In this document: one piece after another, positions 13,170-55,673 of the stretch
Layout: the number at the start of each line of letters is the position of its first letter
How positions within the stretch are numbered: the stretch's first letter is position 1
The notes under the pieces: model-generated
Told to the model about the DNA's origin: nothing
Databases searched by the model: none
What the model saw: only the letters and a program-made list of their open reading frames with translations
Assembly: GCA_028288165.1 (NCBI GenBank)
Contig: JAQBOG010000003.1
Location: 1-64,000 of the forward strand
Direction of reading: 5' to 3'
Source: Sphingobacteriales bacterium
GTDB taxonomy: Bacteria; Bacteroidota; Bacteroidia; Sphingobacteriales; Sphingobacteriaceae
Length of the DNA: 64,000 bases
Program-made: the position numbers and the translations under genes

Positions 13170-13190
13170 GCAACGTTTTATGTTAAACTT

Positions 13191-13279
13191 GCTAGAGCGT
13201 TAGGGATAGAAGTGAAAATCCTTTTTGCCCATCTCCTGGGCAAAAAGATTGGAACGTAAAGCCCGCCCGAACGCCCAAA
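13191..13279 (+). repeat. Dispersed intergenic repeat, copy A
   Basis: Same layout as eight other copies in the window: GCGTTAGGGAT, AAGTGAAAATC, a self-complementary centre (CTTTTTGCCCA / TGGGCAAAAAG), AGATTGGAACG, AAGCCCGCCCGAACGCCC. The ends can pair (GCGTT with AACGC). Confidence 0.9.
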
Positions 13280-13435
13280 ACATTTTCTAATAGTTACTGC
13301 CGGGTTGTTAAACCTACTTGATCTTGTTATTTGGACTAAGAAAAGGAAAGTCTCAAAAAGCTGTTCATCTATACATAAGTCAGATTTACCGATACATACA
13401 GATGGAAAATCGCAAATATTTACTTGATTTGTAAT

Positions 13436-14665
13436 ATGTATCGTTCCAGAGCTACTTCGTTTTATATTCATACTAGCGGCTGGCTCATATTTCTTGGATT
13501 CCCTCTTTTATTCATGAATCGTACTCAGGATAATATTGGAAGCACCTATGAAATTATATTATCTCCCTATTACTGGCTTTTTTGTTTAACATACATTGTG
13601 ATGTTTTACTTAAATTCATGGTTCTTGATACCTGGATTGGTATTTAAAAAAAAATATGTTCAATATACCGGAGTAGTATTGCTCCTTTTTGGATGTGTTT
13701 ATTTTCTTCAACCATTTGATAATTTGCTGGGACACAATCTGAGAGAAAGCCCGAAAGTGATTACAACTACCTCTCCGCCTCAAGAAAACATCCTGTCTCA
13801 AACAGATCAACTTAATAACAACCCAGCAAGCTTGGATACTTTGATGCCAAGTGAAAGAAATCTTCCATTTGGGCCTTTGCCACATCAGGATTTACGAATG
13901 CAGGACGCCCGTTTTAAATCTACCCATAGTGTTGTTTTTATCCATCAAACCGGAAATGTTGATGTGGTTGGCCTATTGCTTTTTATGATGGTTATGGGTT
14001 TGAGCATTGCGGTAAGTACCGTACAACAATGGCAAAGTGCAGAACGGAAAATGGTAATTTCAGAAGCTCACAAGGTAAGTGCAGAAGCTGGCAAAATTAA
14101 TGCTGAACTGTCTTTTTTACGGGCTCAGATCAATCCGCATTTTTTATTCAATACGTTGAATAATATCTATACTCTCTCCGTAACAAATAGTGAAAACACC
14201 TCGGAAAGTATCATGAAACTATCAAATATTATGCGTTATGTTACCGATGATGTGGCAGAGGATTATGTTTCTCTACAAAATGAGGTTGATTGTGTTAATG
14301 ATTATATAGATTTACAACGGTTACGCTTAGGGAAAAAAACAAAACTTATTTTCGAACGAACCGGAACCATTTTTCAGCAAAGAATGGCTCCTTTGATACT
14401 CATTACTTTTATTGAAAATGTGTTCAAATATGGGGTCAGTAATCATCAGGAAACCACCATCCATATTAAAATATCAGTAGAGCCAAATGAGATTTATTTC
14501 TTTTGTCAAAATAGAATTTTCGAGAATAAATCATCGCATAAGCGCACTGGTATTGGTATTGCAAATACACGGAAAAGGTTGGATTATTTGTATCCCGATA
14601 AGCATACTTTGAAAATTACTAATCAAGATGGTCTGTTCACAGTAGACTTAAATCTTGAATGCTAA
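13436..14665 (+). CDS. LytS-type sensor histidine kinase (His_kinase family)
   Basis: 409 residues from the ATG at 13436; a TTG 12 bases upstream is also in frame. Four predicted membrane helices occupy the first 190 residues, with a long non-cytoplasmic Pro/Ser/Asn-rich loop between the third and fourth. A helical linker follows, then the His_kinase motif RAQINPHFLFNTLNNIY and a divergent HATPase (LITFIENVFKYG, GIGIANTRKRLDYLY). This class phosphorylates a LytTR partner, here the next gene, 9 bases on. The pair sits directly before the PqqD/ATP-grasp cassette and may control it. Confidence 0.92.
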   Translation: MYRSRATSFYIHTSGWLIFLGFPLLFMNRTQDNIGSTYEIILSPYYWLFCLTYIVMFYLNSWFLIPGLVFKKKYVQYTGVVLLLFGCVYFLQPFDNLLGHNLRESPKVITTTSPPQENILSQTDQLNNNPASLDTLMPSERNLPFGPLPHQDLRMQDARFKSTHSVVFIHQTGNVDVVGLLLFMMVMGLSIAVSTVQQWQSAERKMVISEAHKVSAEAGKINAELSFLRAQINPHFLFNTLNNIYTLSVTNSENTSESIMKLSNIMRYVTDDVAEDYVSLQNEVDCVNDYIDLQRLRLGKKTKLIFERTGTIFQQRMAPLILITFIENVFKYGVSNHQETTIHIKISVEPNEIYFFCQNRIFENKSSHKRTGIGIANTRKRLDYLYPDKHTLKITNQDGLFTVDLNLEC

Positions 14666-14674
14666 CATATAAAC

Positions 14675-15370
14675 ATGTCATTAAAATGTGTTGCCATTGA
14701 TGATGAGCCATTAGCTCTTGAACTGATCACAAAGTATGTGGCTTTATTTCCGGAATTACAACTCATTTATACATTTGAAGATGCCGTAAGCGGAGCAGAA
14801 TTCCTTGCAAAAAGCTCCGTTGATCTGTTGTTTATTGATATCAATATGCCTGATATCACCGGGCTTGACCTGGTACGTTCTTTAACTAAAAAGCCTATGG
14901 TGATTTTTGTAACCGCTTACAAAAACTTTGCTTTTGAAGGGTTTGAATTACAGGCGCTGGATTATCTCTTAAAGCCTATTGATTTCAAGCGTTTTTCTGC
15001 TGCGGTTACTAAGGCTATTGATTATTACAATTATAAAAATTCGGATAATTCTGAGTCGGATGAGAGTATTTATGTATACTCCGAATACCGAATGATTAAG
15101 ATTGAGCTGAAAGACATAGAGTACATAGAGAGTATGGAAGATTATATTAAGATTTATTTAACAAGTGCTCCCAAACCTGTACTCACCTTAATGACGCTGA
15201 AAAAAATGTTAGAAAAACTGCCAAACACAGGTTTTAGGCGAATCCATAGAAGTTATATTGTGGCTTTGAAAAAGATCAAAGTAATTCATAATCGCAAAGT
15301 TAAATTGGCTAATGCCGAGCTAACGGTAAGCGATAGTTATAGTGACTTTATCAAAGAGTGGTCTAAATAA
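14675..15370 (+). CDS. LytTR family response regulator
   Basis: 231 residues: receiver domain (AIDDEPLA, D55 in FIDINMPDITG, TAYKNFAFEGFE, LKPIDFKRF) followed by a LytTR DNA-binding domain (YIESMEDYIKIY, GFRRIHRSYIVALKKI). It forms a two-component pair with the LytS-type kinase 9 bases upstream. LytTR proteins bind pairs of short direct repeats; two 8-bp repeats lie 40 bases after this gene, before the PqqD-like gene. Confidence 0.94.
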   Translation: MSLKCVAIDDEPLALELITKYVALFPELQLIYTFEDAVSGAEFLAKSSVDLLFIDINMPDITGLDLVRSLTKKPMVIFVTAYKNFAFEGFELQALDYLLKPIDFKRFSAAVTKAIDYYNYKNSDNSESDESIYVYSEYRMIKIELKDIEYIESMEDYIKIYLTSAPKPVLTLMTLKKMLEKLPNTGFRRIHRSYIVALKKIKVIHNRKVKLANAELTVSDSYSDFIKEWSK

Positions 15371-15439: not shown

Positions 15440-15682
15440 ATGAAAATTAAAAAGAATATAGCTACCAGTGAAAACGGGTTTATTTTTAACCCGTCAACTG
15501 GCGATTCATTTTCAAGTAATCCGATCGGAGCAGAAATTTTGTTGTTCATGAAGAGTGGGAAAACATCTTTAGAAATTAAGGAGATTATTCTGGAGAATTA
15601 TGAGGTAGAGCCAGCTCAACTTGAACGCGACTGGGAAGATTGGTTATTGCAATTGAAGGATGCTAATTTGCTTGATTTATAA
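15440..15682 (+). CDS. PqqD-like small protein (peptide-recognition fold)
   Basis: 80 residues matching the PqqD/RiPP-recognition-element fold: NGFIFNPSTGDSFSSNPIGA is the beta-hairpin part, and a three-helix winged region (EIKEIILENYEVEP, WEDWLLQLKDANLLDL) follows. PqqD-type proteins bind a leader peptide and hand it to a modifying enzyme. No radical SAM enzyme is encoded next to it; the neighbour is an ATP-grasp ligase 14 bases on. It is the first gene of a six-gene co-directional cassette. No obvious precursor peptide gene is seen around it. Confidence 0.75.
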   Translation: MKIKKNIATSENGFIFNPSTGDSFSSNPIGAEILLFMKSGKTSLEIKEIILENYEVEPAQLERDWEDWLLQLKDANLLDL

Positions 15683-15696
15683 TTTCGGACTAACAA

Positions 15697-16746
15697 ATGA
15701 TTGAACCCATACCTTACGTAATTGCAATAACTGCATTAAATGCGATTGACAGCCCTGGCCCCGGCCTTGCTGTTATCAGAGCTTTGCGGGAAGGTTTGGG
15801 AACTGGCTTGAGAATTATCGGATTATGTTATGAATCATTAGAGCCTGGAATTTATCTGCATGGTCAGGTTGACAAAACATATCAAATCCCTTACCCAACG
15901 GCAGGGGCGGGCCCGTTATTAGAGCGCCTGCAATATGTTCATGAAAAGGAAAAGCTTGATTTGGTTATCCCAAATTTCGATTCGGAGCTTTATAATTTCA
16001 TTAAAATAAGCGTAGACTTAAATAAACTAGGTATAAAAACCTTTCTTCCATCACACAAACAACTAGAAATCCGGGAAAAAATCAATCTTGCAAAATTTGG
16101 TAAAAAACACAATTTATTAGTTCCAGAAGATCGAATTATATTTAAGGCAGATGAACTTGAAAAAGTAGCAGCAGATTTAGGGTATCCATTAGTAGTAAAA
16201 GGGAAATATTACGAAGCTTCGGTTGTACATACGTTGGAACAAGCCTCGAAAGCATTTAGTTTGTTAAGCGTAAAATGGGGGCTTCCCGTTATTGCTCAGA
16301 AATTTGTAAAAGGCACTGAGATAAATATTGCGGCTCTTGGTGATGGAAAAGGAAACGCCATTTCGGTGATCCCGATGAGGAAATTATACATTACAGATAA
16401 AGGAAAAGCATGGGCCGGGGTTACCTTGGAAGATAATACCTTACTTGATTTGGGCAGAGATTTTATAAAAGCAACCCATTGGAAAGGTGGTTGTGAACTG
16501 GAAATTATGAAAGACGCGGCTGGAAAACTTTTTATAATGGAAATTAATCCGAGGTTTCCGGCATGGGTTTACTTAACGGCAGCAGCAGGGCAAAATCAGC
16601 CAGCTGCATTGGTAAAAATGGCGTTTGGCGAATTGGTCGAACCGTTTGATTCATACCAGCCGGGTAAAATGTTTGTTCGCTATGCCTGGGATCATATTAC
16701 AGATATTACTGAATTTCAACAAATTTCAGCACTTGGGGAACTTTAA
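15697..16746 (+). CDS. ATP-grasp ligase
   Basis: 349 residues. N-terminal pre-ATP-grasp Rossmann part (VIAITALNAIDSPGPGLAV), then the ATP-grasp core: LGYPLVVKGKYYEA supplies the ATP-binding lysine, a hinge region with IAQKFVKGTEIN follows, and the magnesium-binding motif is LFIMEINPRFPAW near residue 285. It resembles carbamoyl-phosphate-synthase-like ligases that join a carboxylate to an amine via an acyl phosphate. The substrate is unknown. It lies between the PqqD-like gene (14 bases) and a PLP decarboxylase (117 bases, filled by a 7-nt repeat array). Confidence 0.88.
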   Translation: MIEPIPYVIAITALNAIDSPGPGLAVIRALREGLGTGLRIIGLCYESLEPGIYLHGQVDKTYQIPYPTAGAGPLLERLQYVHEKEKLDLVIPNFDSELYNFIKISVDLNKLGIKTFLPSHKQLEIREKINLAKFGKKHNLLVPEDRIIFKADELEKVAADLGYPLVVKGKYYEASVVHTLEQASKAFSLLSVKWGLPVIAQKFVKGTEINIAALGDGKGNAISVIPMRKLYITDKGKAWAGVTLEDNTLLDLGRDFIKATHWKGGCELEIMKDAAGKLFIMEINPRFPAWVYLTAAAGQNQPAALVKMAFGELVEPFDSYQPGKMFVRYAWDHITDITEFQQISALGEL

Positions 16747-16747
16747 A

Positions 16748-16859
16748 GTTATAAGTTGTAAGTTATAAGTTGTAAGTCATAAGCCAAAGTCGAAAGCCAA
16801 AGTTTAAAATCTAAAATTCTCATATCTAACATCTCATATCTAACATCTCACATCTAAAA
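16748..16859 (+). repeat. Heptad (7-nt period) repeat array inside the operon
   Basis: Sixteen consecutive 7-mers read in strict phase: GTTATAA and GTTGTAA alternate, then GTCATAA, GCCAAAG, TCGAAAG, CCAAAGT, then TTAAAAT/CTAAAAT, then TCTCATA and TCTAACA alternate, then TCTCACA and TCTAAAA. The unit sequence changes but the period of 7 persists. The array fills the whole gap between the ATP-grasp and decarboxylase genes. Confidence 0.85.
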
Positions 16860-16863
16860 AAGA

Positions 16864-18216
16864 ATGAAGCTACGATACGAACGTCCTTATTTGAAGAAAA
16901 TGAACGTTGGTGTGATGAACAAATTCGGAAGCCGTTCAGATTTTCAACCAGTTAAATTTATTGATGGGGTTTCTGTAAAAAGCCTTACAGATAAATATGG
17001 TTCACCAGTTTTTGTATTATCCGAAAGACAAATCCGTAAGAATTATCAATCGGCTGTACGATCTTTTAATACCCGTTATCCAAAAGTTCAGTTTGCATGG
17101 AGTTATAAAACTAATTATATAAATGCCGTATGTAACGTTTTTCACCAGGAGGGCAGTTGGGCAGAAGTTGTATCTGGATTCGAATATCATAAGGCAATTG
17201 GGAACGGTGTAGCAGGAAATCATATTATTTTTAATGGACCTGAAAAAAAAGAGGCAGATTTAAAGCTTGCTATAGAAAACGATTCACTGATTCATATTGA
17301 TCATTTTGAAGAGCTATATAAACTCATTGATATTTGTGAAGCGCTTAATAAAAAGCCTAGAGTAGCCATCCGTGTAAACATGGATACAGGCATTTATCCA
17401 CTTTGGGATCGATTTGGTTTCAATTATGAAAATGGTCAGGCGTGGAATGCCATTCTGAAAATTGTTGGCTTAGGTAAAATGCAGTTAGTTGGGTTGCATT
17501 GCCATATAGGTACGTTCATGTTATCTACATCCGCGTATGCGATAGCCACTTCCAAACTTTGCGATTTGGCAATGAAATGTAAAAACCAGTTGCAAAATCC
17601 AATTGAGTATTTAGATCTTGGAGGAGGTTTCCCATCTACAAACACATTAAAGGGGTCATATTTGCCCGGTGTTGATACCGTACCACCCATTGATGATTTT
17701 GCAGAAGCAATCACGACAACTATTTTAGGCTATGGCTTTCAACAAAATGAGCTTCCGATGTTGATTTTAGAGACGGGAAGAGCACTAATTGATGACGCAG
17801 GGTATCTTCTCGGTTCTGTTATAGCAAACAAACAATTAAGTGATGGGCGCAGGGCAACCATTCTAAACTTTGGTGTAAATCTGTTGTTCACTTCTTTTTG
17901 GTACGATCACCACATCAGTCCGGCCCAAGATTTTACGCATTATACTGAAGAAACTATTCTTTACGGACCTATGTGTATGAACATTGATGTCATCCGCGAA
18001 AGCATAAACCTGCCATTGTTAAGCCCAGGAGATTTAGTGGTAGTACACAAGGTTGGAGCGTATAACATGACGCAATGGATGCAATTTATTAGCACAAGGC
18101 CCGCTGTAGTTTTGATTGATGAAACTGGTCAGACACATGAAATTCGCCAGGCTGAAACATTAAAATATATGGAAATTCCTGAAAGTGTTCCGGTACATCT
18201 TCAACACAAAAAATAA
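16864..18216 (+). CDS. PLP-dependent decarboxylase (Orn/DAP/Arg decarboxylase group IV fold)
   Basis: 450 residues, an alanine-racemase-fold barrel plus beta domain like diaminopimelate decarboxylase (LysA). PLP lysine K82 is in FAWSYKTN, followed by the HCHIGT histidine motif, the phosphate-binding DLGGGFPS, the ETGRALIDDAGYL arginine segment, GPMCMNID with the active-site cysteine, and VGAYNMTQ. It decarboxylates a D-centre amino acid or a related amine-acid substrate. Since the locus has no other lysine-biosynthesis gene, I think it is a dedicated enzyme of the cassette rather than LysA. The start may be one of several Met codons within the first 20 residues. Confidence 0.87.
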   Translation: MKLRYERPYLKKMNVGVMNKFGSRSDFQPVKFIDGVSVKSLTDKYGSPVFVLSERQIRKNYQSAVRSFNTRYPKVQFAWSYKTNYINAVCNVFHQEGSWAEVVSGFEYHKAIGNGVAGNHIIFNGPEKKEADLKLAIENDSLIHIDHFEELYKLIDICEALNKKPRVAIRVNMDTGIYPLWDRFGFNYENGQAWNAILKIVGLGKMQLVGLHCHIGTFMLSTSAYAIATSKLCDLAMKCKNQLQNPIEYLDLGGGFPSTNTLKGSYLPGVDTVPPIDDFAEAITTTILGYGFQQNELPMLILETGRALIDDAGYLLGSVIANKQLSDGRRATILNFGVNLLFTSFWYDHHISPAQDFTHYTEETILYGPMCMNIDVIRESINLPLLSPGDLVVVHKVGAYNMTQWMQFISTRPAVVLIDETGQTHEIRQAETLKYMEIPESVPVHLQHKK

Positions 18217-20413
18217 ACAAAAGCTGGTGATCAATAACCTGAAGGGACAAAAAGCAGTTAAAGAATTGGTAACCTCAGTTCTGCACAGCTATTCTGTTGT
18301 TTTTTTTTCTCAGAATAAAGTATTCGGTTTCTTGCTTTTAGTAGTGTCATTCCTTAACGTAAATGCAGGTATCGCCGGACTTGCCTGCGTAGTATTTTCG
18401 TTGACATTGGTTCACCTTTTGGGCTATCAAAAAGAAAATATCCGGATGGGGCTTTACAGTTTCAATAGCCTGCTACTCGGGATCGGTTTTGGTTCGTTTT
18501 TCCAACTTAACCCATCCTTCTGGATCTGGATTACCGCGGCGTGTTTTTTCGTGGTTATACTTACCATTGTGATTACCTCATTATTGGGTAAATATGGCTT
18601 ACCGGTGCTTACAATACCTTTTATTTTTACGTTTTGGATAGTTTTGTTGGCAGTAAATGGTTTTGCTACAATGGGATTACAGCAAATCAATAGCGTGTTG
18701 CTTAATGAAATGCAGAACACCAAGCCAGAAAGTATTACGGGGTTAATAAATTATTTTCAATCGGTAAAGGTGCCATACTACTTTGATTTGTTTTTCAGAT
18801 CATTGAGTGCCATTCTTTTTCAAAATAGTGTGTTTTGTGGGATGATAATGAGTGTCGGCTTGTTTTTACATTCCCGTATTACCTTCACCTTGATGGTACT
18901 TGGCTTTACGGTAGCTTGTGTTTTTAATTCTCTTACGGGGACGTACTTGAATGAGATTAGTTATTACCATTTAGGGAGCAATTTAATGATGGTGTCGACC
19001 GCTATTGGAGGTTTTTTCCTTATACCTTCCGTAAGATCATACGTGTGGGCAATCATTGCCGTGCCCATGACCATATTACTAATAAATGCACTCACTAATT
19101 TATTAGGAATTCCAAATCTCCCGATTTTTTCTATGCCATTTTGCATAGTCACATTAAGCCTGCTTTACTTTTTTATGCTGCGAATTAATCCGGGTAAGTT
19201 GGCACTCACACCTTTTCAGCATTATTCGCCTGAAGTAAATTTGTATCAATTTTTGAATGGGAAAGAACGATTGCATGATCTAAATTATCTGCGATTGAAT
19301 TTGCCATTTATGGGAAGTTGGACAGTTTCTCAGGGTTATAATGGTGATATCACACATAAAGGCGAATGGGCAAAAGCACTGGATTTTGTGGTTAAAGACG
19401 AGCTTGGCCATACTTTCATAAGCTCTGGAAGTAACTGTGAACACTATTATTGTTTTAATAAACCCGTTTTAGCATGTGCGGATGGTATTATTGAAGATGT
19501 GGTTGATCACGTGGATGACAATGAAATTAACGTGTTAAACACCGCCCAAAATTGGGGAAATAGCGTAGTGATTAAACATATCGGTGGATTGTATTCTAAA
19601 GTTTCACACCTGAAAAAAGCATCTATAAAAGTAAATGTTGGTGATTTTATAAAACAAGGTGAATTAATAGGTCTTTGTGGGAATTCAGGAAGATCACCAG
19701 AACCACATTTGCATTTCCAAACCCAGTTGGCACCGTATGTTGGCTCTAAAACGTTTGAATATCCGATGGCTTATTTTGTTAGCACTCAACCCAACTCAGT
19801 CCCTAAATTTAATAATTTTTGCGTTCCTGAAGAAGGAACTATTGTTCAAGCCCCGGTTATTAATGGTTCGTTAAAAAAGGCTTTTTCATTCCAGCCGGGA
19901 TACTCAGCAACGGTAAAATCGAATACTGGGCAAGAAGAAGTTTGGGAAGTTTTCACAGATGCATTAAACCAGTCCTATATCTATAGTCTAACGTCGGGTG
20001 CCACCGCTTACTTTGTTAATAACGGAACCGTATTCTATTTCACAAGTTTTTATGGTAGCCAAAATTCATTACTTTACTTATTTTATCAGTCAGCTTATAA
20101 AGTAATATTTTCATCAAAGTCATACGTAAAAGCATGTGATCAATTTCCTTTGCATCTGAGTAGCAACAAAGTTGAACTTTGGGTTCATGATATAGTAGCA
20201 CCTTTTTATCAATTCATAAAGCAAAAATTTGTAAGCGAATGTACCTATGAACAGGCTGGTTTTATGATCAAGTCAGAAGAATGCAAAGAACTTTTTGGAA
20301 GGAGTACGCAAGTAATGAGCGCCACGATACATGTAAAAGAGAACGCCATTAAAAGCTTTAGCGTGAGCTCAAAAGGAAAAGAAATTAATTTAATATGGTG
20401 TTCAGAAAGCTAA
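18185..20413 (+). CDS. Urea-transporter-like membrane domain fused to an M23 peptidase domain
   Basis: 742 residues. Residues about 25-335 form some ten membrane helices resembling the urea transporter family (LYSFNSLLLGIGFG, LPVLTIPFIFTFWIV, and a second similar half). A LytM/M23 domain occupies about 370-530: THKGEWAKALDF, NWGNSVVIKH, VSHLKKASIKVNVGDFI and PEPHLHFQ, so the HxH and first His/Asp ligands exist although the first motif is stretched. The C-terminal 200 residues are unassigned. The frame opens at a GTG at 18185 inside the decarboxylase gene; a GTG at 18227 would avoid overlap. Likely role: an inner-membrane channel with a periplasmic wall-acting domain. Confidence 0.75.
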   Translation: MFRYIFNTKNKQKLVINNLKGQKAVKELVTSVLHSYSVVFFSQNKVFGFLLLVVSFLNVNAGIAGLACVVFSLTLVHLLGYQKENIRMGLYSFNSLLLGIGFGSFFQLNPSFWIWITAACFFVVILTIVITSLLGKYGLPVLTIPFIFTFWIVLLAVNGFATMGLQQINSVLLNEMQNTKPESITGLINYFQSVKVPYYFDLFFRSLSAILFQNSVFCGMIMSVGLFLHSRITFTLMVLGFTVACVFNSLTGTYLNEISYYHLGSNLMMVSTAIGGFFLIPSVRSYVWAIIAVPMTILLINALTNLLGIPNLPIFSMPFCIVTLSLLYFFMLRINPGKLALTPFQHYSPEVNLYQFLNGKERLHDLNYLRLNLPFMGSWTVSQGYNGDITHKGEWAKALDFVVKDELGHTFISSGSNCEHYYCFNKPVLACADGIIEDVVDHVDDNEINVLNTAQNWGNSVVIKHIGGLYSKVSHLKKASIKVNVGDFIKQGELIGLCGNSGRSPEPHLHFQTQLAPYVGSKTFEYPMAYFVSTQPNSVPKFNNFCVPEEGTIVQAPVINGSLKKAFSFQPGYSATVKSNTGQEEVWEVFTDALNQSYIYSLTSGATAYFVNNGTVFYFTSFYGSQNSLLYLFYQSAYKVIFSSKSYVKACDQFPLHLSSNKVELWVHDIVAPFYQFIKQKFVSECTYEQAGFMIKSEECKELFGRSTQVMSATIHVKENAIKSFSVSSKGKEINLIWCSES

Positions 20414-21579
20414 TATTACTTTTACTAGTTGTTGCGCTTTCTGAAAACACCAAAGCGCAGCAAATTACTTATGATAAGGCAGACAGTATGACGTATGCGC
20501 AATATATGTTGGGTAACTGGAAAGATTTGAAAGCAACTGGAGAAAATGCACTTAAGCAAGGTGTAGATTTCCCTTATTTAAGGTTACGTATAGCCTATGC
20601 GAACTTTGTGGAAGGGAATTATAGTGCTGCTTTGAATCAGTATAAGCAGGTCTTGAAAAATGATTCTTTTAATGAGACCGCACGATTATATTCTTACTGG
20701 TGTTATGAATATTTGAATCGCAATGACGAAGCTTCTTATCATGCTTCTAAGCTCAGAGATTCATTCTTTATAAACTCAGGGATCAAGCCTTTTGGTTTAT
20801 TGCGAGTGGGTGTAGAAAGTAGTTACAAAATGCCTGATGATGTATTACGGAACCCCGGTGCTTACTATCGCTTTCATCTGAGTAACCGTTTATTTTTAAA
20901 ATTGAAGCTGGAACAAGCGATGTCCTTATATAAGCAACAATTAACCATTAGGTCTAATTTAAATTCAGGAAACCCGCGTCTTACTTTAAATGATAATCAG
21001 CAAGTAGAGTATTATGGCAAACTGAGCTATCCAATTAATTCCTCCTTAATACTACTGGGTGCTTACCATTATTTAAACAATGACTTCGGCGGAACAACCT
21101 ATCAAAATCATATTGGGTTGGGAGGTTTAACGTACTCTATGCCGTATTATGAAATACAAGGAGATGTAAATTTAAGCAGTTTAGCAGGTGTAAACGTAAA
21201 ACAGTACAATGCAGGGTTAACCATTTATCCTAAAGGGAATTTGAACCTGTATACGGTTTTACGAGTAAGTGTTCAAAATCAAGCGGCCTCAAACCAGATC
21301 GTTTTCACGCAAGTAGCTGGTTCAAAGATTGCTAAGTTTTTATGGCTTGAAGCGAATGTGACCTTGGGTAAACTTAATAATTACCTAGATGCAGATGCGG
21401 TGTACGTTTACAATTCCATTGATCCATCGCTGTTTAAGGCAGGTTCAACAGCATTTATTCCCTTAAAATTAAAGCTGCTTTTACATTTGAACTATACGTA
21501 TGAACAAAAAGAGAATGCATATGAGCTATATACATATAATCAACATTCGATAACCGGAGGATTAACATGGAAATTTTAA
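20395..21579 (+). CDS. TPR protein with outer-membrane beta-barrel domain
   Basis: 394 residues. Signal peptide ends SENTKAQQ. Residues about 35-125 form TPR-like helices (AQYMLGNWKDLKATGENAL, YANFVEGNYSAALNQYKQV). From about 135 on, alternating amphipathic strands lead to a C-terminal GGLTWKF, the terminal Phe signature of outer-membrane barrels. The layout resembles YaiO-type proteins. It overlaps the preceding UT/M23 gene by 19 bases and the next TPR gene by 13 bases, so translation is coupled. It could form the outer-membrane exit of the cassette. Confidence 0.8.
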   Translation: MVFRKLILLLLVVALSENTKAQQITYDKADSMTYAQYMLGNWKDLKATGENALKQGVDFPYLRLRIAYANFVEGNYSAALNQYKQVLKNDSFNETARLYSYWCYEYLNRNDEASYHASKLRDSFFINSGIKPFGLLRVGVESSYKMPDDVLRNPGAYYRFHLSNRLFLKLKLEQAMSLYKQQLTIRSNLNSGNPRLTLNDNQQVEYYGKLSYPINSSLILLGAYHYLNNDFGGTTYQNHIGLGGLTYSMPYYEIQGDVNLSSLAGVNVKQYNAGLTIYPKGNLNLYTVLRVSVQNQAASNQIVFTQVAGSKIAKFLWLEANVTLGKLNNYLDADAVYVYNSIDPSLFKAGSTAFIPLKLKLLLHLNYTYEQKENAYELYTYNQHSITGGLTWKF

Positions 21580-22190
21580 GAAGATTATATTATACGTCCA
21601 TTTTTGTGTTTTTTGTAAGTTATTCTTACGCACAATCAGATGCGGCACTGCAGAAAGCTTTCCGGAACAGCTACGCCAATGAAAACAAAAAAGATTACCA
21701 AGCTGCAATTGCCGACGTTGCGCCCTATTATTCAGAGAAAAGTTATGAAGTAAATATCCGCTTAGGCTGGTTAAATTATGTGAACAAGAACTATAATGCT
21801 TCTCAAACTTATTACTCCAGAGCAGTTAATCTGAAGCCAAATTCTATCGAAGCCAAATTTGGTTATGTAAAACCGCTTTCCTTTTTACAAAGTTGGGATA
21901 AGGTGTTGGCTCAGTATAATGACATTATCAAAATTGATCCGCAGAATACGCAAGCCAATTATTGGGCGGGGGTTATTTATTATAATCGCAAAAATTTTGC
22001 TGGGGCAATTAAGTTGTTCAAAGCGGTAGTTGATTTATACCCGTTTGACTATGATGGCAACCACATGCTGGGCTGGGCAAATTTGATGGCTGGTAAAAAG
22101 GCTGAAGCAAAAATGTATTTCAATAAAGCACTTATTATTAAGCCTGATGATTCTTCGAGCAATGAAGGCCTTAGCCGGGCAAATAGATAA
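21567..22190 (+). CDS. Secreted tetratricopeptide repeat protein
   Basis: 207 residues with a signal peptide (VSYSYAQ) and about four TPR units (for example LGWLNYVNKNYNASQTYYSRAV, split over residues 66-88, and YWAGVIYYNRKNFAGAIKLF). TPR solenoids act as scaffolds for protein partners, here probably in the periplasm. It overlaps the barrel gene by 13 bases and ends the cassette; a terminator follows 28 bases later. No enzymatic motif is seen. Confidence 0.85.
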   Translation: MEILRRLYYTSIFVFFVSYSYAQSDAALQKAFRNSYANENKKDYQAAIADVAPYYSEKSYEVNIRLGWLNYVNKNYNASQTYYSRAVNLKPNSIEAKFGYVKPLSFLQSWDKVLAQYNDIIKIDPQNTQANYWAGVIYYNRKNFAGAIKLFKAVVDLYPFDYDGNHMLGWANLMAGKKAEAKMYFNKALIIKPDDSSSNEGLSRANR

Positions 22191-22217: not shown

Positions 22218-22240
22218 AAGCCGGCTTCAGTCGGCTTTTT
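22218..22240 (+). terminator. Terminator after the PqqD/ATP-grasp cassette
   Basis: AAGCCG and CGGCTT flank an 8-base loop and are followed by a run of T. It lies 28 bases after the last TPR gene and marks the operon end. Confidence 0.75.
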
Positions 22241-22318
22241 GTTTTCAAGAAATCTAAGTTTGATTAAAGGGAATGAATAGGACTCAGGAAGACGTTATAA
22301 GAGGTATTTATGAAACTT

Positions 22319-22407
22319 GCTAGGTTTTGCGTTAAGGATTGAAGTGAAAATTCTTTTTCTTTCTCCAAGAAAAAGATTGTAACGAAAAGCCTGCCCGAAC
22401 GCCCAAA
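22319..22407 (+). repeat. Dispersed intergenic repeat, copy B
   Basis: GCGTTAAGGATTG on the left, centre CTTTTTCTT / AAGAAAAAG, right end GCCTGCCCGAACGCCC. Compared with copy A, the left GGG is AGG and the right GCCCG is GCCTG. Confidence 0.88.
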
Positions 22408-22704
22408 TCCATTTCTGAAACGGCGACAATAGAACGTAGGCGGCAATTAATTTTTCTAAGTTCTCTCGTCCTTGGTGATGAGTTGCCTGACAATAAGGGA
22501 AAAGTGGCTTTTGAGGCAGATAAGGCGGCTCGAAACCCAGTTGTCGATACAAGATCGCCGTTCATCGACACAATGTTTTTGGATGGAAGCTTTGTTTGCA
22601 CCTTTATACTGTTGGTTGAGAGTCGGCAATACTAAGGATTAAGCGATGATTCTCTGGTATAATTAAATCAAGAATAAGCGATATAACCTTTAAAATTTTA
22701 GAAA
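22408..22704. other. Unexplained gap with a GC-richer patch
   Basis: About 300 bases between repeat B and the PepSY-like lipoprotein. The part 22430-22635 looks richer in G and C than neighbouring spacers and several frames are open on both strands; one plus frame contains LPDNKGKVAFEADKAARN. None has a credible start and I recognise no family. It may be a relic or part of a larger repeat attached to copy B. Confidence 0.35.
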
Positions 22705-23664
22705 ATGAAAACTAAGCATTCAAACTATTTATTCCTGATCACGATCGGTGTTTTACTGTCGTTCGCATCTTGCAAAAAAGACACAGCTGTTACAGCAGAC
22801 CAAACTTCCTTATCTGCTTCGGAAGCGATAGCAATTGCTTCCACTAATTCTATAACCGGCAATACCAGCTCTACAGATTCGGTGTACGTGGTAGAAGGTT
22901 GCAAAAGAGGAAACGATAAAACAGAGGTTGCGAATGCGTCATTGAGTGCTGCAATTACAAGTTATTTAAGCACTAATTATGCAGGATATACCTTCAAAAA
23001 AGCGTTTAGTATTACTAATAAAACCACTAACACGCTCGATAGTTACATTGTTGCCATTTTATTTAACTCGAATCCAGTTGCCATCAAGTTTGATGCTTCG
23101 GGTAATTTTGTTAAAGTGATGGAATTAAGAGAAGGGCATGAATTTGATCCCGGTGATGATAAGGGACCTCATCGCGGAAAAGAGCATGATGGTGATGATC
23201 ATGGAAGACATTTAGGAGATCTTTTTGGCCATCGTGATGGATTGAACAGAGATACCATTGCAATCAGTGCTTTGCCAGCCGTAATTAAATTGTATTTCGT
23301 TGCTAATTATAGCGCAGATACTTTAGCGCATGCGGAAAAAAATCGTGATTCAAGTACCGTAGTAATAAGCAAGAACAACGGTTTGTATGCTACCATATTT
23401 AATAAAAGCAACGGATTTATCAGAAGAGACAAGTTGCCAGCTCCGAAAGGGAAAGATCAAGAAGTAACACTAACTTCTTTGCCAGCTTCTGCTCAAACAT
23501 ACCTTACTGATACATATCCAGCGTATGTATTCAAAAAAGCATTTAACGTTAAAAAAGACGGAATTAACCTAGGTTACCTGGTATTTATTGACGCTAATTT
23601 AACAAAGTACGCAGTACAATTTGACGCCAGCGGTAAGTTTATTACTGCAGTTGCGGTCCGATAA
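22705..23664 (+). CDS. PepSY-like lipoprotein
   Basis: 319 residues. The lipobox LLSFASC gives lipidation at about Cys23. Three copies of a PepSY-like (BLIP-like) unit follow, at about residues 73-145, 190-240 and 250-319, marked by TSYLSTNYAGYTFKKAF, IKLYFVANYSADTL and AQTYLTDTYPAYVFKKAF, each ending in an FDASGxF-type strand in copies 1 and 3. Between copies 1 and 2 lies an Asp/His/Gly-rich stretch (HEFDPGDDKGPHRGKEHD) that could bind metal. Such proteins are periplasmic and may be inhibitors; the target is unknown. It is a single gene closed by a terminator. Confidence 0.82.
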   Translation: MKTKHSNYLFLITIGVLLSFASCKKDTAVTADQTSLSASEAIAIASTNSITGNTSSTDSVYVVEGCKRGNDKTEVANASLSAAITSYLSTNYAGYTFKKAFSITNKTTNTLDSYIVAILFNSNPVAIKFDASGNFVKVMELREGHEFDPGDDKGPHRGKEHDGDDHGRHLGDLFGHRDGLNRDTIAISALPAVIKLYFVANYSADTLAHAEKNRDSSTVVISKNNGLYATIFNKSNGFIRRDKLPAPKGKDQEVTLTSLPASAQTYLTDTYPAYVFKKAFNVKKDGINLGYLVFIDANLTKYAVQFDASGKFITAVAVR

Positions 23665-24279: not shown

Positions 24280-24316
24280 ATCGGGTATTTCAAGCTATTT
24301 ATTCGTATTGAAATAA

Positions 24317-24428
24317 TTTGGGCGTTCGAGCGGGCTGTCCGTTGCAATCTTTTTTGCCGCTCCTTCCACTTCGTTCCAGGGACGACAAAAAAGGATTTCC
24401 TCTTCCATCCCTAACGCAAAACCTAGCA
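24317..24428 (-). repeat. Dispersed intergenic repeat, copy C
   Basis: Read on the minus strand: GCGTTAGGGATGG, a self-complementary centre around CTTTTTTGTCG, then AGCCCGCTCGAACGCCC. The outer triplet is CTC instead of CCC, while the inner CCC is kept. A spurious 69-residue frame covers it. Confidence 0.88.
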
Positions 24429-24551
24429 AGTTTAATAAAATACATGCAATAACACCTTTCTTAGTCCGAACCGCGTTTTTCAAAATCGAACTCCAGGTAA
24501 ACACTGTTATTTCGATACGTGTTTAAAATAGATTTACATTTTTATTTTTTA

Positions 24552-24626: not shown

Positions 24627-26651
24627 ATGAAGACTGGCAAATATTTAAGTCAATTATTAACAGGTGCACTTCTTTTTGCTTGCTTGCAAATACAGGCACA
24701 ACAAACTGATTATACCATTAAAGCAGTTCCGTTTACGCAGGTAAAATTTACCGATCAGTTATGGACATCGCACATAGAAACTAACCGGACGGTTACTATT
24801 CCGGCCTCATTTAAACGTTGTGAAACTACGGGCCGGGTGAAGAATTTTCAAATGGCTGCCGAAAAGAAAGATAAATTTTGCACCGTTTTCCCTTTTGACG
24901 ATACGGATATTTATAAAACAGTAGAAGGGGCATCGTTTTCAATGGCGGTTCATCCGGATAAGAAACTTGATAAGTATGTAGACTCCCTTATTGAAATAGT
25001 AGGCAAAGCACAAGAGCCCGATGGTTATTTATATACAGCCAGAACGATTGATCCACTGAACCCGCATGCTTGGGCCGGTAAAGACAGGTGGGTAAACGAA
25101 CACGACAATAGCCACGAAACATATAACTCTGGTCACTTGTTCGAAGCTGCGGCGGCTCATTTTCAGGCAACCGGAAAAAGGAATTTATTAAATATTGCTT
25201 ACAAAAATGCAGACTTGTTAGTCAAAACGTTTGGTAACGATAAACTCCATGTTCCCCCAGGCCACGAGGTGGTAGAAATGGGTCTGGTTAAATTGTATCG
25301 CATCAGTGGTAAAAAGGAATATTTAAATCTGGCTAAGTTTTTTCTTGATCAACGTGGGCAACGAAAGTACGATCCAAAAAGTGCCAACCCCTGGGAAAAT
25401 GGAAGTTACTGGCAAGATAATGCGCCGGTGATTGCGCAAAATGAGGCAGAAGGCCATGCAGTGAGAGCGATGTATTTATACTCGGCCATGGCCGATGTTG
25501 CTGCACTTACTGGTGATACCTCTTATTTATCTGCCATCGATAAAATTTGGAGCAACATGACAGGCAAAAAAATGTATGTCCAAGGAAGCATCGGCTCGAT
25601 TCCGTCTGGCGAACGTTTCGGTGGGGATTATGAATTGCCGAATTCAACTGCTTACAATGAAACTTGTGCTGCCATTGGCAATGCGATGTGGAATCAGCGA
25701 ATGTTTCAACTTCATGGCGATTCGAAATACATGGATGTACTTGAAAAAACCTTGTACAACGGCTTAATTTCGGGAGTAGGTTTAGATGGGAAATCGTTCT
25801 TCTACACCAACGCCATGGAAATAAAACACAGTTTCTCTCATTCGGCGATGGAACGTGAGCGTTCAGGATGGTTTGAATGTTCTTGCTGCCCAACAAATAT
25901 TGCCCGTTTTTTACCTTCGTTGCCGGGATATGTGTATGCGCAAAGTGGCAATTCGGTTTACGTGAATTTATTTATAAGCGGCTCTGCAGATATGACTGTA
26001 AATAGTAAAGCCGTAAAATTAGTTCAACAAAATAATTATCCTTGGGATGGAGGTTTACTATTTACTGTAAATCCGGCATCATCACTTGATTTCGCACTTA
26101 AAATCCGGATTCCGGGTTGGGCTCAAAATCAGGCGATACCTTCCGAACTATATAATTACAAAACCCGGTCGGATAGCAAAATTCAAATTAAGATAAATGG
26201 TACTCCTACCGAATACAAAATGGAGAAGGGCTATGCCGTATTAAATAGAAACTGGAAAAAGAACGATCGGGTAGAAGTGAATCTTCCGATGGAAGTTAAA
26301 CGGGTTGCCGCAACGGATAAGGTGGTAAATAATATCGGAAAAGTGGCCTTGCAACGTGGCCCGCTAATGTATTGTGCCGAGTGGAAAGATAATTATGGCC
26401 TAGCCTCAAATATTATCATCCCGGTAGGTGCTGCTTTTACAACTGAATTTAATAAAGAGCTTTTAAACGGCGTGATGACTTTAAAAGCCCCAGCAATATT
26501 TATAAATGTAGATGATGCCGGCAAAAAAATCAGCACAGAAGAAAAAAAGGTGACTATTATTCCATATTATTCTTGGGCGAACCGCGGCAAAGGTGAAATG
26601 ACGGTTTGGTTCCCCGAGAAGATAAAATATGTTGATTTGTTAAGTAACTAA
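24627..26651 (+). CDS. GH127 beta-L-arabinofuranosidase (DUF1680)
   Basis: 674 residues with a signal peptide (LQIQAQQ), so periplasmic or secreted. The (alpha/alpha)6 barrel carries the GH127 set: acid/base E329 in SGERFGG, zinc ligands in YNETCAA (E345, C347), and nucleophile/zinc cysteines C420-C421 in CSCCPTN. The spacing equals that known for the Bifidobacterium enzyme HypBA1. It releases L-arabinose from beta-linked arabinofuranosides. A palindrome shared with the ara genes lies 56 bases upstream, suggesting AraR control. It is a single gene, closed by repeat D and a bidirectional terminator. Confidence 0.93.
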   Translation: MKTGKYLSQLLTGALLFACLQIQAQQTDYTIKAVPFTQVKFTDQLWTSHIETNRTVTIPASFKRCETTGRVKNFQMAAEKKDKFCTVFPFDDTDIYKTVEGASFSMAVHPDKKLDKYVDSLIEIVGKAQEPDGYLYTARTIDPLNPHAWAGKDRWVNEHDNSHETYNSGHLFEAAAAHFQATGKRNLLNIAYKNADLLVKTFGNDKLHVPPGHEVVEMGLVKLYRISGKKEYLNLAKFFLDQRGQRKYDPKSANPWENGSYWQDNAPVIAQNEAEGHAVRAMYLYSAMADVAALTGDTSYLSAIDKIWSNMTGKKMYVQGSIGSIPSGERFGGDYELPNSTAYNETCAAIGNAMWNQRMFQLHGDSKYMDVLEKTLYNGLISGVGLDGKSFFYTNAMEIKHSFSHSAMERERSGWFECSCCPTNIARFLPSLPGYVYAQSGNSVYVNLFISGSADMTVNSKAVKLVQQNNYPWDGGLLFTVNPASSLDFALKIRIPGWAQNQAIPSELYNYKTRSDSKIQIKINGTPTEYKMEKGYAVLNRNWKKNDRVEVNLPMEVKRVAATDKVVNNIGKVALQRGPLMYCAEWKDNYGLASNIIIPVGAAFTTEFNKELLNGVMTLKAPAIFINVDDAGKKISTEEKKVTIIPYYSWANRGKGEMTVWFPEKIKYVDLLSN

Positions 26652-26666
26652 TTTTAAAAATATAGA

Positions 26667-26751
26667 TTTGGGCGTTCGGGCAGGCTTTCCGTTACAATCT
26701 TTTTTATGGAGAATAAAAAAGGATTTTCACTACAATCCTTAACGCACTAGC
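26667..26751 (-). repeat. Dispersed intergenic repeat, copy D
   Basis: On the minus strand: GCGTTAAGGATTG, centre CTTTTTTAT / ATAAAAAAG, right end GCCTGCCCGAACGCCC. It shares the AGG/CCT variant pair with copy B. Confidence 0.88.
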
Positions 26752-26801
26752 ATCGCACCTAAAACAGCTTCAACAGGTTAATTTGTAAGATTACATTTAA
26801 T

Positions 26802-31877: not shown

Positions 31878-31985
31878 CTAGGCTTAGCGTTAGGGATGGA
31901 AGAGGAAATCCTTTTTTGTCATCCGGAGCGTAGCGCAGGACGAACAAAAAAGATTGGAACGAACAGCCCGCCCGAACGCCCAAAT
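31878..31985 (+). repeat. Dispersed intergenic repeat, copy E
   Basis: GCGTTAGGGATGG, centre CTTTTTTGTC ... GAACAAAAAAG, right end AGCCCGCCCGAACGCCC. Codons read through it give a spurious peptide like those at copies C and H. It lies between divergent genes, so it is not limited to operon ends. Confidence 0.9.
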
Positions 31986-42059: not shown

Positions 42060-42173
42060 GGTTTGCGTGAGGGATTGCAGTGAAAATCCTTTTTTTGTCA
42101 TCTTGAGCGCAGTCGAAAGGCGACAAAAAAAGATTGAAACGAAAAGCCCGACCCTCTTGGGACACGTCCAAAA
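42060..42173 (+). repeat. Dispersed intergenic repeat, copy F (variant ends)
   Basis: GCGTGAGGGATTG on the left, centre CTTTTTTTGTC ... GACAAAAAAAG, right end ACCCTCTTGGGACACGTCC. Left GCGTG pairs with right CACGT, replacing the T:A pair of other copies by G:C. It lies inside the ter operon. Confidence 0.88.
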
Positions 42174-53640: not shown

Positions 53641-53734
53641 GGATGTATGTTGACGTTCTTATTAACCTGAGTTCGACTCTACAATTAAATGTTCAGCACT
53701 CAGAAATTTGTTCTATAAAGGCTTTATTAAACAT

Positions 53735-53842
53735 GCTAGGTTTTGCGTTAGGGATTGAAGTGAAAATCCTTTTTTGTCATCCTGATCGGAGTCGAAGGGC
53801 GACAAAAAAGATTGTAACGTAAAGCCCGCCCGAACGCCCAAA
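53735..53842 (+). repeat. Dispersed intergenic repeat, copy H
   Basis: GCTAGGTTTTGCGTTAGGG, centre CTTTTTTGTC ... GACAAAAAAG, right end AAGCCCGCCCGAACGCCC. This copy is closest to the family consensus. Confidence 0.92.
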
Positions 53843-53877
53843 ATCATCTTTTAATATTTATACTCGAACTTACATTA

Positions 53878-55471: not shown

Positions 55472-55515
55472 GTTTAATAATTGGGTTTATTACGAATGTT
55501 TTTAGAAAGAGGCGT

Positions 55516-55605
55516 TTTGGGCGTTCGGGCGGGCTTTCCATTCCAATCTTTTTGCGAAGGGTGCAAAAAGGATTTTTACTTCAATCCCTAACGCAAAACC
55601 TAGCA
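55516..55605 (-). repeat. Dispersed intergenic repeat, copy I
   Basis: On the minus strand: GCGTTAGGGATTG, centre CTTTTTGC ... GCAAAAAG with a short loop, right end AAGCCCGCCCGAACGCCC. Confidence 0.9.
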
Positions 55606-55673
55606 GGTCTATAAGTTCCTTTAGTAAAACGTCGATCTAAACCAAGTCATACATTAAATTTACTATTTTACCA

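Follow-up and report, generated by a model that had tools for sequence, protein, structure and literature searches.

The 64,000-nucleotide stretch of DNA analysed here (the window) comprises positions 1 to 64,000 of the forward strand of contig JAQBOG010000003.1 from a Sphingobacteriales bacterium (NCBI GenBank assembly GCA_028288165.1). At positions 15440-22190 it carries a cassette of six open reading frames (ORFs) on the + strand, coding for a PqqD-fold protein, an ATP-grasp ligase, a pyridoxal phosphate (PLP)-dependent decarboxylase, a fusion of a urea transporter (UT) domain with an M23 zinc peptidase domain (UT-M23), a TPR-containing outer-membrane barrel protein (TPR-barrel) and a further TPR protein, which are discussed below as a candidate system for the synthesis and export of a small metabolite. 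Domains were identified with Pfam and NCBIfam models; the PqqD, Orn/DAP decarboxylase, UT and M23 matches lie over the respective Pfam cut-offs, while the ATP-grasp match is weaker (Table 1). A first-pass annotation of the same DNA had described co-directional genes with overlaps or short gaps, interrupted only by a heptad array, closed by a terminator and preceded by a LytS/LytTR pair. Coordinates, strand and spacing all agree with this layout: the intergenic distances are +14, +117, -32, -19 and -13 nt in gene order, the single larger gap carries two 7/14-bp tandem arrays, a hairpin follows the last gene, and both upstream regulators are identified by Pfam. The gap between the ligase and decarboxylase genes is shorter than 50 nt, or replaced by an overlap, in many other loci.

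Table 1. Features of the cassette and of the regulator genes preceding it (positions in the window).
Feature	Position	Strand	Evidence and remarks
LytS-like sensor histidine kinase	13424..14665	+	Pfam His_kinase 8.9e-26; lineage-specific neighbour, likely regulator
LytTR response regulator	14675..15370	+	Pfam LytTR 8.2e-19, Response_reg 1.5e-17; lineage-specific neighbour
PqqD-fold (RRE-like) protein, 80 aa	15440..15682	+	PF05402 1.5e-10, 41.6 bits vs cut-off 23.4
ATP-grasp ligase, carbamoyl-phosphate-synthase-like group, 349 aa	15697..16746	+	Pfam (weaker match), profile comparison, family motifs
Two short 7/14-bp tandem arrays, ligase-decarboxylase gap	16746-16783 and 16805-16859	+	Not conserved in other loci
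Alanine-racemase-fold PLP decarboxylase, 450 aa	16864..18216	+	Pfam Orn/DAP decarboxylase over cut-off; GP(L/M)C-M-N-I-D specificity loop; own clade
UT-M23 fusion, 742 aa, GTG start	18185..20413	+	PF03253 6.2e-53 (180 bits), PF01551 3.4e-15
Urea-channel-fold domain, UT-M23 residues 30-328	18272..19168	+	Foldseek match of the model to 3k3g; filter altered
M23 zinc-peptidase domain, about residues 379-534	19319..19786	+	LytM-type structural matches; predicted cytoplasmic
TPR-barrel outer-membrane protein, 394 aa	20395..21579	+	Model: signal helix, TPR helices 26-128, 14-strand barrel 134-393
TPR protein, 207 aa, N-terminal signal-like segment	21567..22190	+	Pfam TPR_2 3.9e-16; predicted periplasmic
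Terminator-like hairpin ending the operon	22218..22237	+	8-pair stem followed by a T run

The suggestion that these genes form a dedicated cassette, and are not unrelated neighbours whose homologues occur mostly alone, is borne out by both co-occurrence and gene order. In a draw of 296 Bacteroidota genomes, three of the proteins (ligase, decarboxylase and full-length UT-M23) were each found in 27 genomes, which were the same 27 for all three, with the genes adjacent every time (about one in eleven genomes; 22 of 139 genera); the extra UT-M23 matches obtained at a loose threshold are M23-only proteins. A ligase orthologue is present in only a few of 60 relatives, and 43 loci were obtained when 84,980 species genomes were scanned. 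All six proteins were mapped on 52 loci and then on 20 further ones, and the order PqqD, ligase, decarboxylase, UT-M23 was retained throughout, contig ends excepted, so that the core order is maintained in about 70 loci from two phyla; the PqqD gene of one locus (L089), at first apparently missing, was recovered by a profile search. The TPR protein, which is conserved in 44 loci, and the barrel follow downstream in almost every locus whose sequence extends that far. Among the exceptions are L083, L088 and L089, in which the downstream TPR protein was looked for and not found, and the sole barrel-like match of L083 lies several kb distant. In a distant Ignavibacteria-like group (e.g., L094, L095, and L101) the barrel gene follows that of the TPR protein and codes for a barrel without TPRs of its own; the two barrel forms are linked by profile comparison (97% probability, E 3.8e-11).

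Carriers of the cassette, many of them bacteria of soil, water and sediment, include Pedobacter, Hymenobacter, the Cyclobacteriaceae, metagenome-assembled genomes of Bacteroidales and Lentimicrobiaceae, the Ignavibacteria-like group and the Cloacimonadota, whose members show 43-44% identity. Compared pairwise over 27 loci, the cassette proteins have correlated identities (r 0.62-0.84), as co-inheritance would give, with a contribution from shared species history. Because of the roughly 70 conserved loci and the identical phyletic patterns, chance grouping is excluded, and it is virtually certain that the six genes constitute a functional unit. An apparent ATP-grasp/decarboxylase fusion in L068 was discarded, since the joined ORF crosses masked bases (X) and hence gives no evidence of a fusion. 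A second copy of the PqqD gene was observed in L051, where two copies lie on one contig (842-1090 and 6355-6615) and about 5.5 kb separate the first from the cassette downstream of it.

A view on the decarboxylase shows that it belongs to a class distinct from LysA, the diaminopimelate (DAP) decarboxylase of lysine biosynthesis. The cassette enzyme scores 211 bits against a lysA cut-off of 297.9 (TIGR01048), whereas a true LysA encoded elsewhere in the same genome reaches 394 bits. Of 26 relatives searched, 25 have a LysA over the cut-off, and the cassette class is present only alongside the cassette. A tree of 65 proteins places the two classes on opposite sides of a branch with a support of 100/98. 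In LysA from Thermotoga, the distal end of DAP is bound through its amino group by Glu315 and through its carboxylate by Arg285 (PMC8277567); as judged from alignment and motifs, these residues correspond to Met and Thr in the cassette decarboxylase. The motif CM(N/Q)ID occurs in all 37 cassette enzymes listed, where Bacteroidota LysA have CE(S/T)(S/T)D, and the specificity loop reads CMNID, except for two distant members with CMQID. By bit score, branch support and loss of the Glu and Arg contacts, the cassette decarboxylase is thus not a LysA, and the grouping with LysA that the first-pass annotation had considered as a sign of unrelated neighbours is not seen.

The best-scoring characterised relative of the cassette decarboxylase is the N-citrylornithine decarboxylase FigC (192 bits), in which the LysA contacts are replaced by Met355 and a 3-10 helix with Thr327 and Tyr331, and which has been grouped with SbnH, AcsE, MccE, and BtrK, enzymes acting on conjugated or carrier-bound substrates, as well as with DAP and D-ornithine decarboxylases (PMC7857480). 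In the alignment, FigC and the cassette enzyme have three of these residues in common, namely the Met that follows the catalytic Cys and, on the 3-10 helix, Thr and Tyr. FigC falls on the cassette side of the tree, on a very long branch for which no exact placement is claimed, and the cassette enzyme scores 211 bits against the FslC model NF041039, whose cut-off is 500. Because the enzyme forms its own clade, has lost the Glu and Arg contacts of LysA and has pocket residues in common with an N-citrylornithine decarboxylase, its substrate is likely a conjugated amino acid without citrate-like charge.

Among the partners of the decarboxylase, the ligase has a profile nearest to carbamoyl-phosphate-synthase-type ATP-grasp proteins, with ATP-grasp D-Ala-D-Ala ligases among its weak matches, and its family motifs RKxxITDKGKAWxG and EINPRxPAWxYL are conserved. 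Domain, clade and co-occurrence evidence together agree with the earlier view of the first genes as a ligase and decarboxylase pathway. The small first protein shows the conserved motif FxFxPxxGxSxxxN in 52 aligned loci and lies over the cut-off of PF05402, the RRE/PqqD fold looked for in clusters of ribosomally synthesised and post-translationally modified peptides (RiPPs), while its score is far under every curated RiPP PqqD model. The same three types of parts, an ATP-grasp enzyme, a small protein and an alanine-racemase-fold decarboxylase, recall BtrJ, BtrI, and BtrK of butirosin, and BtrK is a detectable relative of the cassette decarboxylase; the PqqD-fold protein might therefore be regarded as a carrier onto which the ATP-grasp enzyme loads an amino acid, with the decarboxylase acting on the loaded form. 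This is very improbable, as the 52 loci reveal neither an invariant attachment residue nor a conserved C-terminus in the PqqD-fold protein, and Pfam detects no phosphopantetheine carrier-protein domain. As a separate observation, another ligase-decarboxylase pair occurs on a Rhizobium plasmid (L137, 3914-6323), where a different type III PLP decarboxylase with a GPLCTPLD loop is encoded beside a sugar-transfer-associated ATP-grasp gene.

The first-pass annotation had also considered a modified peptide as the product. A PqqD-fold protein serving a RiPP pathway would be expected to have a small conserved ORF close by. A precursor was searched among all ORFs of 18-130 aa that lie within about 4.5 kb upstream and 6.5 kb downstream of the decarboxylase gene in non-redundant loci, comparing only ORFs without overlap to known genes. 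No cluster of small ORFs occurring in at least three diverse loci was obtained in these surroundings. A size-matched control, consisting of 40-aa pieces of the PqqD-fold protein, was recovered in 54 of 55 loci. Because a linked precursor peptide is absent from the searched surroundings, a classical RiPP pathway is not supported, and the product was not upheld as a modified peptide in this sense. It is still conceivable, if unlikely, that the precursor is encoded elsewhere in the genome, in which case the PqqD-fold protein would bind the leader, ligase and decarboxylase would modify the peptide, and the M23 domain would cut off the leader at the channel mouth, in a manner similar to the leader removal by peptidase-containing ABC exporters. 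The PqqD/RRE fold scores over its cut-off, and a ligase, a decarboxylase and a cytoplasmic-side peptidase on a membrane channel are the very parts needed for such a pathway; however, a conserved ORF of 18-130 aa is missing from the searched surroundings despite the working control, a peptide needs a wider pore than the urea-channel fold offers, and the distance of the PqqD-fold protein from all curated RiPP models argues in the same direction.

The fourth protein combines a UT domain with an M23 domain. In its structural model (predicted local distance difference test, pLDDT, 87.5), the UT part matches dvUT and the mammalian urea transporters with TMt values of about 0.8 (0.84 for 3k3g) in Foldseek, and the M23 part gives separate structural matches to LytM-type M23 domains. 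The selectivity filter of dvUT contains the sites Q24 (inner) and E187 (outer), which are both Gln in mammals (PMC4357013). The position of E187 is occupied by Ala or Ser in all 24 aligned UT-M23 sequences, and that of Q24 by Gln in 9 of 24 and mostly by hydrophobic residues otherwise (V/I/M/Q/S seen), while the domain scores 126 bits against the urea_trans_yut cut-off of 274.6. Judged from these residues, the filter is changed and no longer of the urea-channel type. The zinc site of the M23 domain is intact, since none of the 24 sequences departs from the zinc and catalytic residues H391, D400, H475, H508 and H510.

The two ends of the UT fold lie on one side of the membrane, which is the cytoplasmic one in mammalian UTs. 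In the cassette proteins, basic and acidic residues number on average 1.2 and 3.2 in the inter-repeat loop, against 7.0 and 3.2 at the M23 junction. Because of the shared side of the UT ends and the positive charge bias at the junction, the M23 domain is likely located on the cytoplasmic side, and not in the periplasm, as its place in the first-pass annotation had implied. Two further observations concern this protein family. A Thermus thermophilus plasmid codes for a protein in which several transmembrane helices at the N-terminus precede an M23 domain of the cassette subtype, about 40% identical (L136, 2641-3600), which is possibly a second membrane-anchored cytoplasmic M23 protein. The UT-M23 ORF of L089 (9593-11191, reversed locus) codes for 532 aa and stops after the M23 domain, so that the C-terminal residues 541-742 of the window protein are either dispensable or lineage-specific.

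As M23 domains usually cut peptidoglycan, the cassette might also serve a muropeptide pathway, in which the M23 domain would cut wall peptides, ligase and decarboxylase would process the DAP-containing fragments, and channel and barrel would move them. The decarboxylase is distantly related to DAP decarboxylase, D-Ala-D-Ala ligases appear among the weak ATP-grasp matches, and envelope regulators or Spy-like proteins are encoded nearby in some loci. We consider this improbable: the decarboxylase lacks the Glu and Arg contacts to DAP, the predicted cytoplasmic M23 domain is separated from the wall, and the ligase profile matches carbamoyl-phosphate synthase and not Ddl.

For the TPR-barrel, hidden Markov models gave no barrel family. 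The architecture listed in Table 1 comes from an AlphaFold2 model built with 25 homologues (pLDDT 93.4), whose barrel is best aligned with the 14-strand channels of the FadL and TodX type (Z 20.5, root-mean-square deviation 3.0, 245 residues), followed by OmpG with Z values of 17-18; in the model the TPR helices lie ahead of the barrel, and FadL channels have an N-terminal hatch domain that plugs the barrel. BcsC was among the Foldseek matches, and TPR helices preceding a barrel are typical of such exporters, which is why the architecture weakly favours export. Slam was dismissed as the nearest TPR-barrel relative, as only two members match the Slam TPR model (E 0.005); the structural lists contain no Slam structure, which does not exclude Slam. 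The assignment of the last three genes to an envelope-spanning export part is supported.

The opposite direction of transport would apply to an uptake-and-use system, in which a small amide would enter through barrel and channel and, once hydrolysed by the M23 domain, go on to ligase and decarboxylase for processing. Its nearest relatives being uptake pores of the FadL type, the barrel would suit such a role, and urea channels are passive and usually supply a cytoplasmic hydrolase. Since TPR-barrel fusions are mainly known from exporters, a ligase is unexpected in a breakdown pathway, and no catabolic neighbours are conserved around the cassette loci, uptake appears decidedly improbable.

The reading that we favour is a self-contained biosynthetic and export pathway for a small decarboxylated amide, to which we assign a probability of about 40%. 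It starts from the co-inherited unit, the non-LysA decarboxylase, the changed channel filter, the intact zinc site and the lack of a linked precursor, and from there we infer substrate, product, direction of transport and each catalytic step. The ATP-grasp ligase would couple the side chain of an amino acid to another carboxylate or amine; the PqqD-fold protein would be its partner or docking subunit. As suggested by its active-site residues, the PLP decarboxylase may then strip the free alpha-carboxylate from the conjugated amino acid, comparable to N-citrylornithine decarboxylase, generating an amine or amide. The conjugate would be cleaved by the M23 zinc domain at the cytoplasmic face, the small product would cross the inner membrane through the attached pore of urea-channel fold, and the TPR protein together with the TPR/14-strand barrel might take it over the periplasm and the outer membrane.

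Several points weigh against this pathway. The barrel is nearest to FadL- and OmpG-type pores, which import or allow diffusion, and the urea-channel fold is a passive and narrow pore, which does not sit easily with a bulky product. The likeness to FigC is partial, as the citrate contacts His357, Arg387 and Asn389 are replaced by Ile, Gln and Met. The cytoplasmic placement of the M23 domain rests on homology and charge bias, and some M23-only relatives from Bacteroidota have signal peptides. In L083, UT and M23 are encoded by separate ORFs, with the M23 ORF lacking a signal peptide; this split form could be the result of a frameshift and was not accepted as proof of the topology, to which it lends weak support. 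A further claim, which is possible but should be treated as doubtful, is that the biosynthetic and export pathway represents a new class of biosynthesis-coupled exporter, in which a urea-channel fold acts as product channel with its own cytoplasmic-side zinc hydrolase, is fed by a PqqD-guided ligase and a conjugate-type decarboxylase, and has a TPR-barrel as outlet.

The regulation of the cassette varies by lineage, while its core is constant. The LytS/LytTR pair noticed upstream of the cassette in the window also directly precedes it in loci of Pedobacter (L041-L044, L058) as well as in L040 and L077, but is not a fixed component, being replaced in other lineages by AraC-type, Crp-like or ECF sigma factor genes along with a Spy-like protein, or by a gene for a secreted protein of the type IX secretion system (T9SS) type. 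The latter was rejected as a core partner because it is limited to 14 loci from two lineages and is absent from the window and many loci. A secreted protein of about 263-292 aa is encoded co-directionally and directly upstream of the PqqD gene in L063, L065, L066, L068, L069, L071, L073, L094-L096 and L100-L102, with a T9SS-type C-terminal domain in most of those loci. In L036, L051 and L067, Spy/CpxP-like periplasmic proteins are encoded upstream of PqqD and ECF sigma factors further upstream, hinting at envelope-stress control in these lineages. An anti-phage defence system was discounted, as none of the six proteins matched a PADLOC defence model at E 1e-5.

Just past the terminator, and outside the conserved core, the window codes for a secreted PepSY-like protein of 319 aa with a His/Asp-rich stretch (22705-23664). 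An interspersed repeat of about 100 bp occurs at 13177-13296, 22307-22416, 24311-24467, 26643-26752, 31886-31985, 53695-53860 and 55514-55633, with fragments near 42062-42153; two copies flank the block of LytS/LytTR and cassette, and 40 scored matches (247 first-look candidates) were found genome-wide.

The cassette pairs enzymes of known chemistry with an unusual membrane protein and occurs in the Bacteroidota sample as well as in Cloacimonadota. If the proposed pathway is true, it would add a family of exported metabolites and a new coupling of enzymatic release to membrane passage. The analysis also corrects two likely misannotations by similarity, "diaminopimelate decarboxylase" and "urea transporter", with residue-level evidence against both. 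In line with the first-pass annotation, which did not recognise the locus as a described system, no earlier account of this set of genes turned up in the open-access papers searched. We know of no characterised system that joins a urea-channel fold to a zinc peptidase on the predicted cytoplasmic side.

A comparison with known systems shows partial likeness in each part of the cassette. The pyrroloquinoline quinone, mycofactocin and lasso peptide systems likewise contain a PqqD/RRE fold, modifying enzymes and a zinc peptidase, but the cassette differs from such PqqD-dependent RiPP pathways in having no linked precursor, radical SAM enzyme, cyclase or ABC exporter. In BcsC, PgaA, and Slam, an outer-membrane barrel likewise comes after periplasmic TPR helices, whereas the cassette barrel has about three TPRs, 14 strands (16 in BcsC and PgaA) and FadL/OmpG geometry, and neither a polysaccharide synthase nor a surface lipoprotein cargo is encoded near the cassette. 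In its 14 strands and its geometry, the barrel corresponds to the FadL-family channels. The UT domain has the fold and two-repeat architecture of dvUT (3k3g), but is fused to M23, always has Ala or Ser in place of the outer Glu and often a hydrophobic residue in place of the inner Gln. The butirosin genes btrJ, btrI, and btrK also bring together an ATP-grasp ligase, a small protein and an alanine-racemase-fold decarboxylase; the cassette differs in its PqqD fold instead of an acyl carrier, its different membrane part and the absence of aminoglycoside genes. Finally, the substrate of FigC and FslC of the rhizoferrin pathway is an amino acid conjugate that a ligase has produced (PMC7857480), as is proposed for the cassette decarboxylase, but the ligase of that pathway is a nonribosomal-peptide-synthetase-independent siderophore (NIS) synthetase, whereas the cassette employs an ATP-grasp enzyme.

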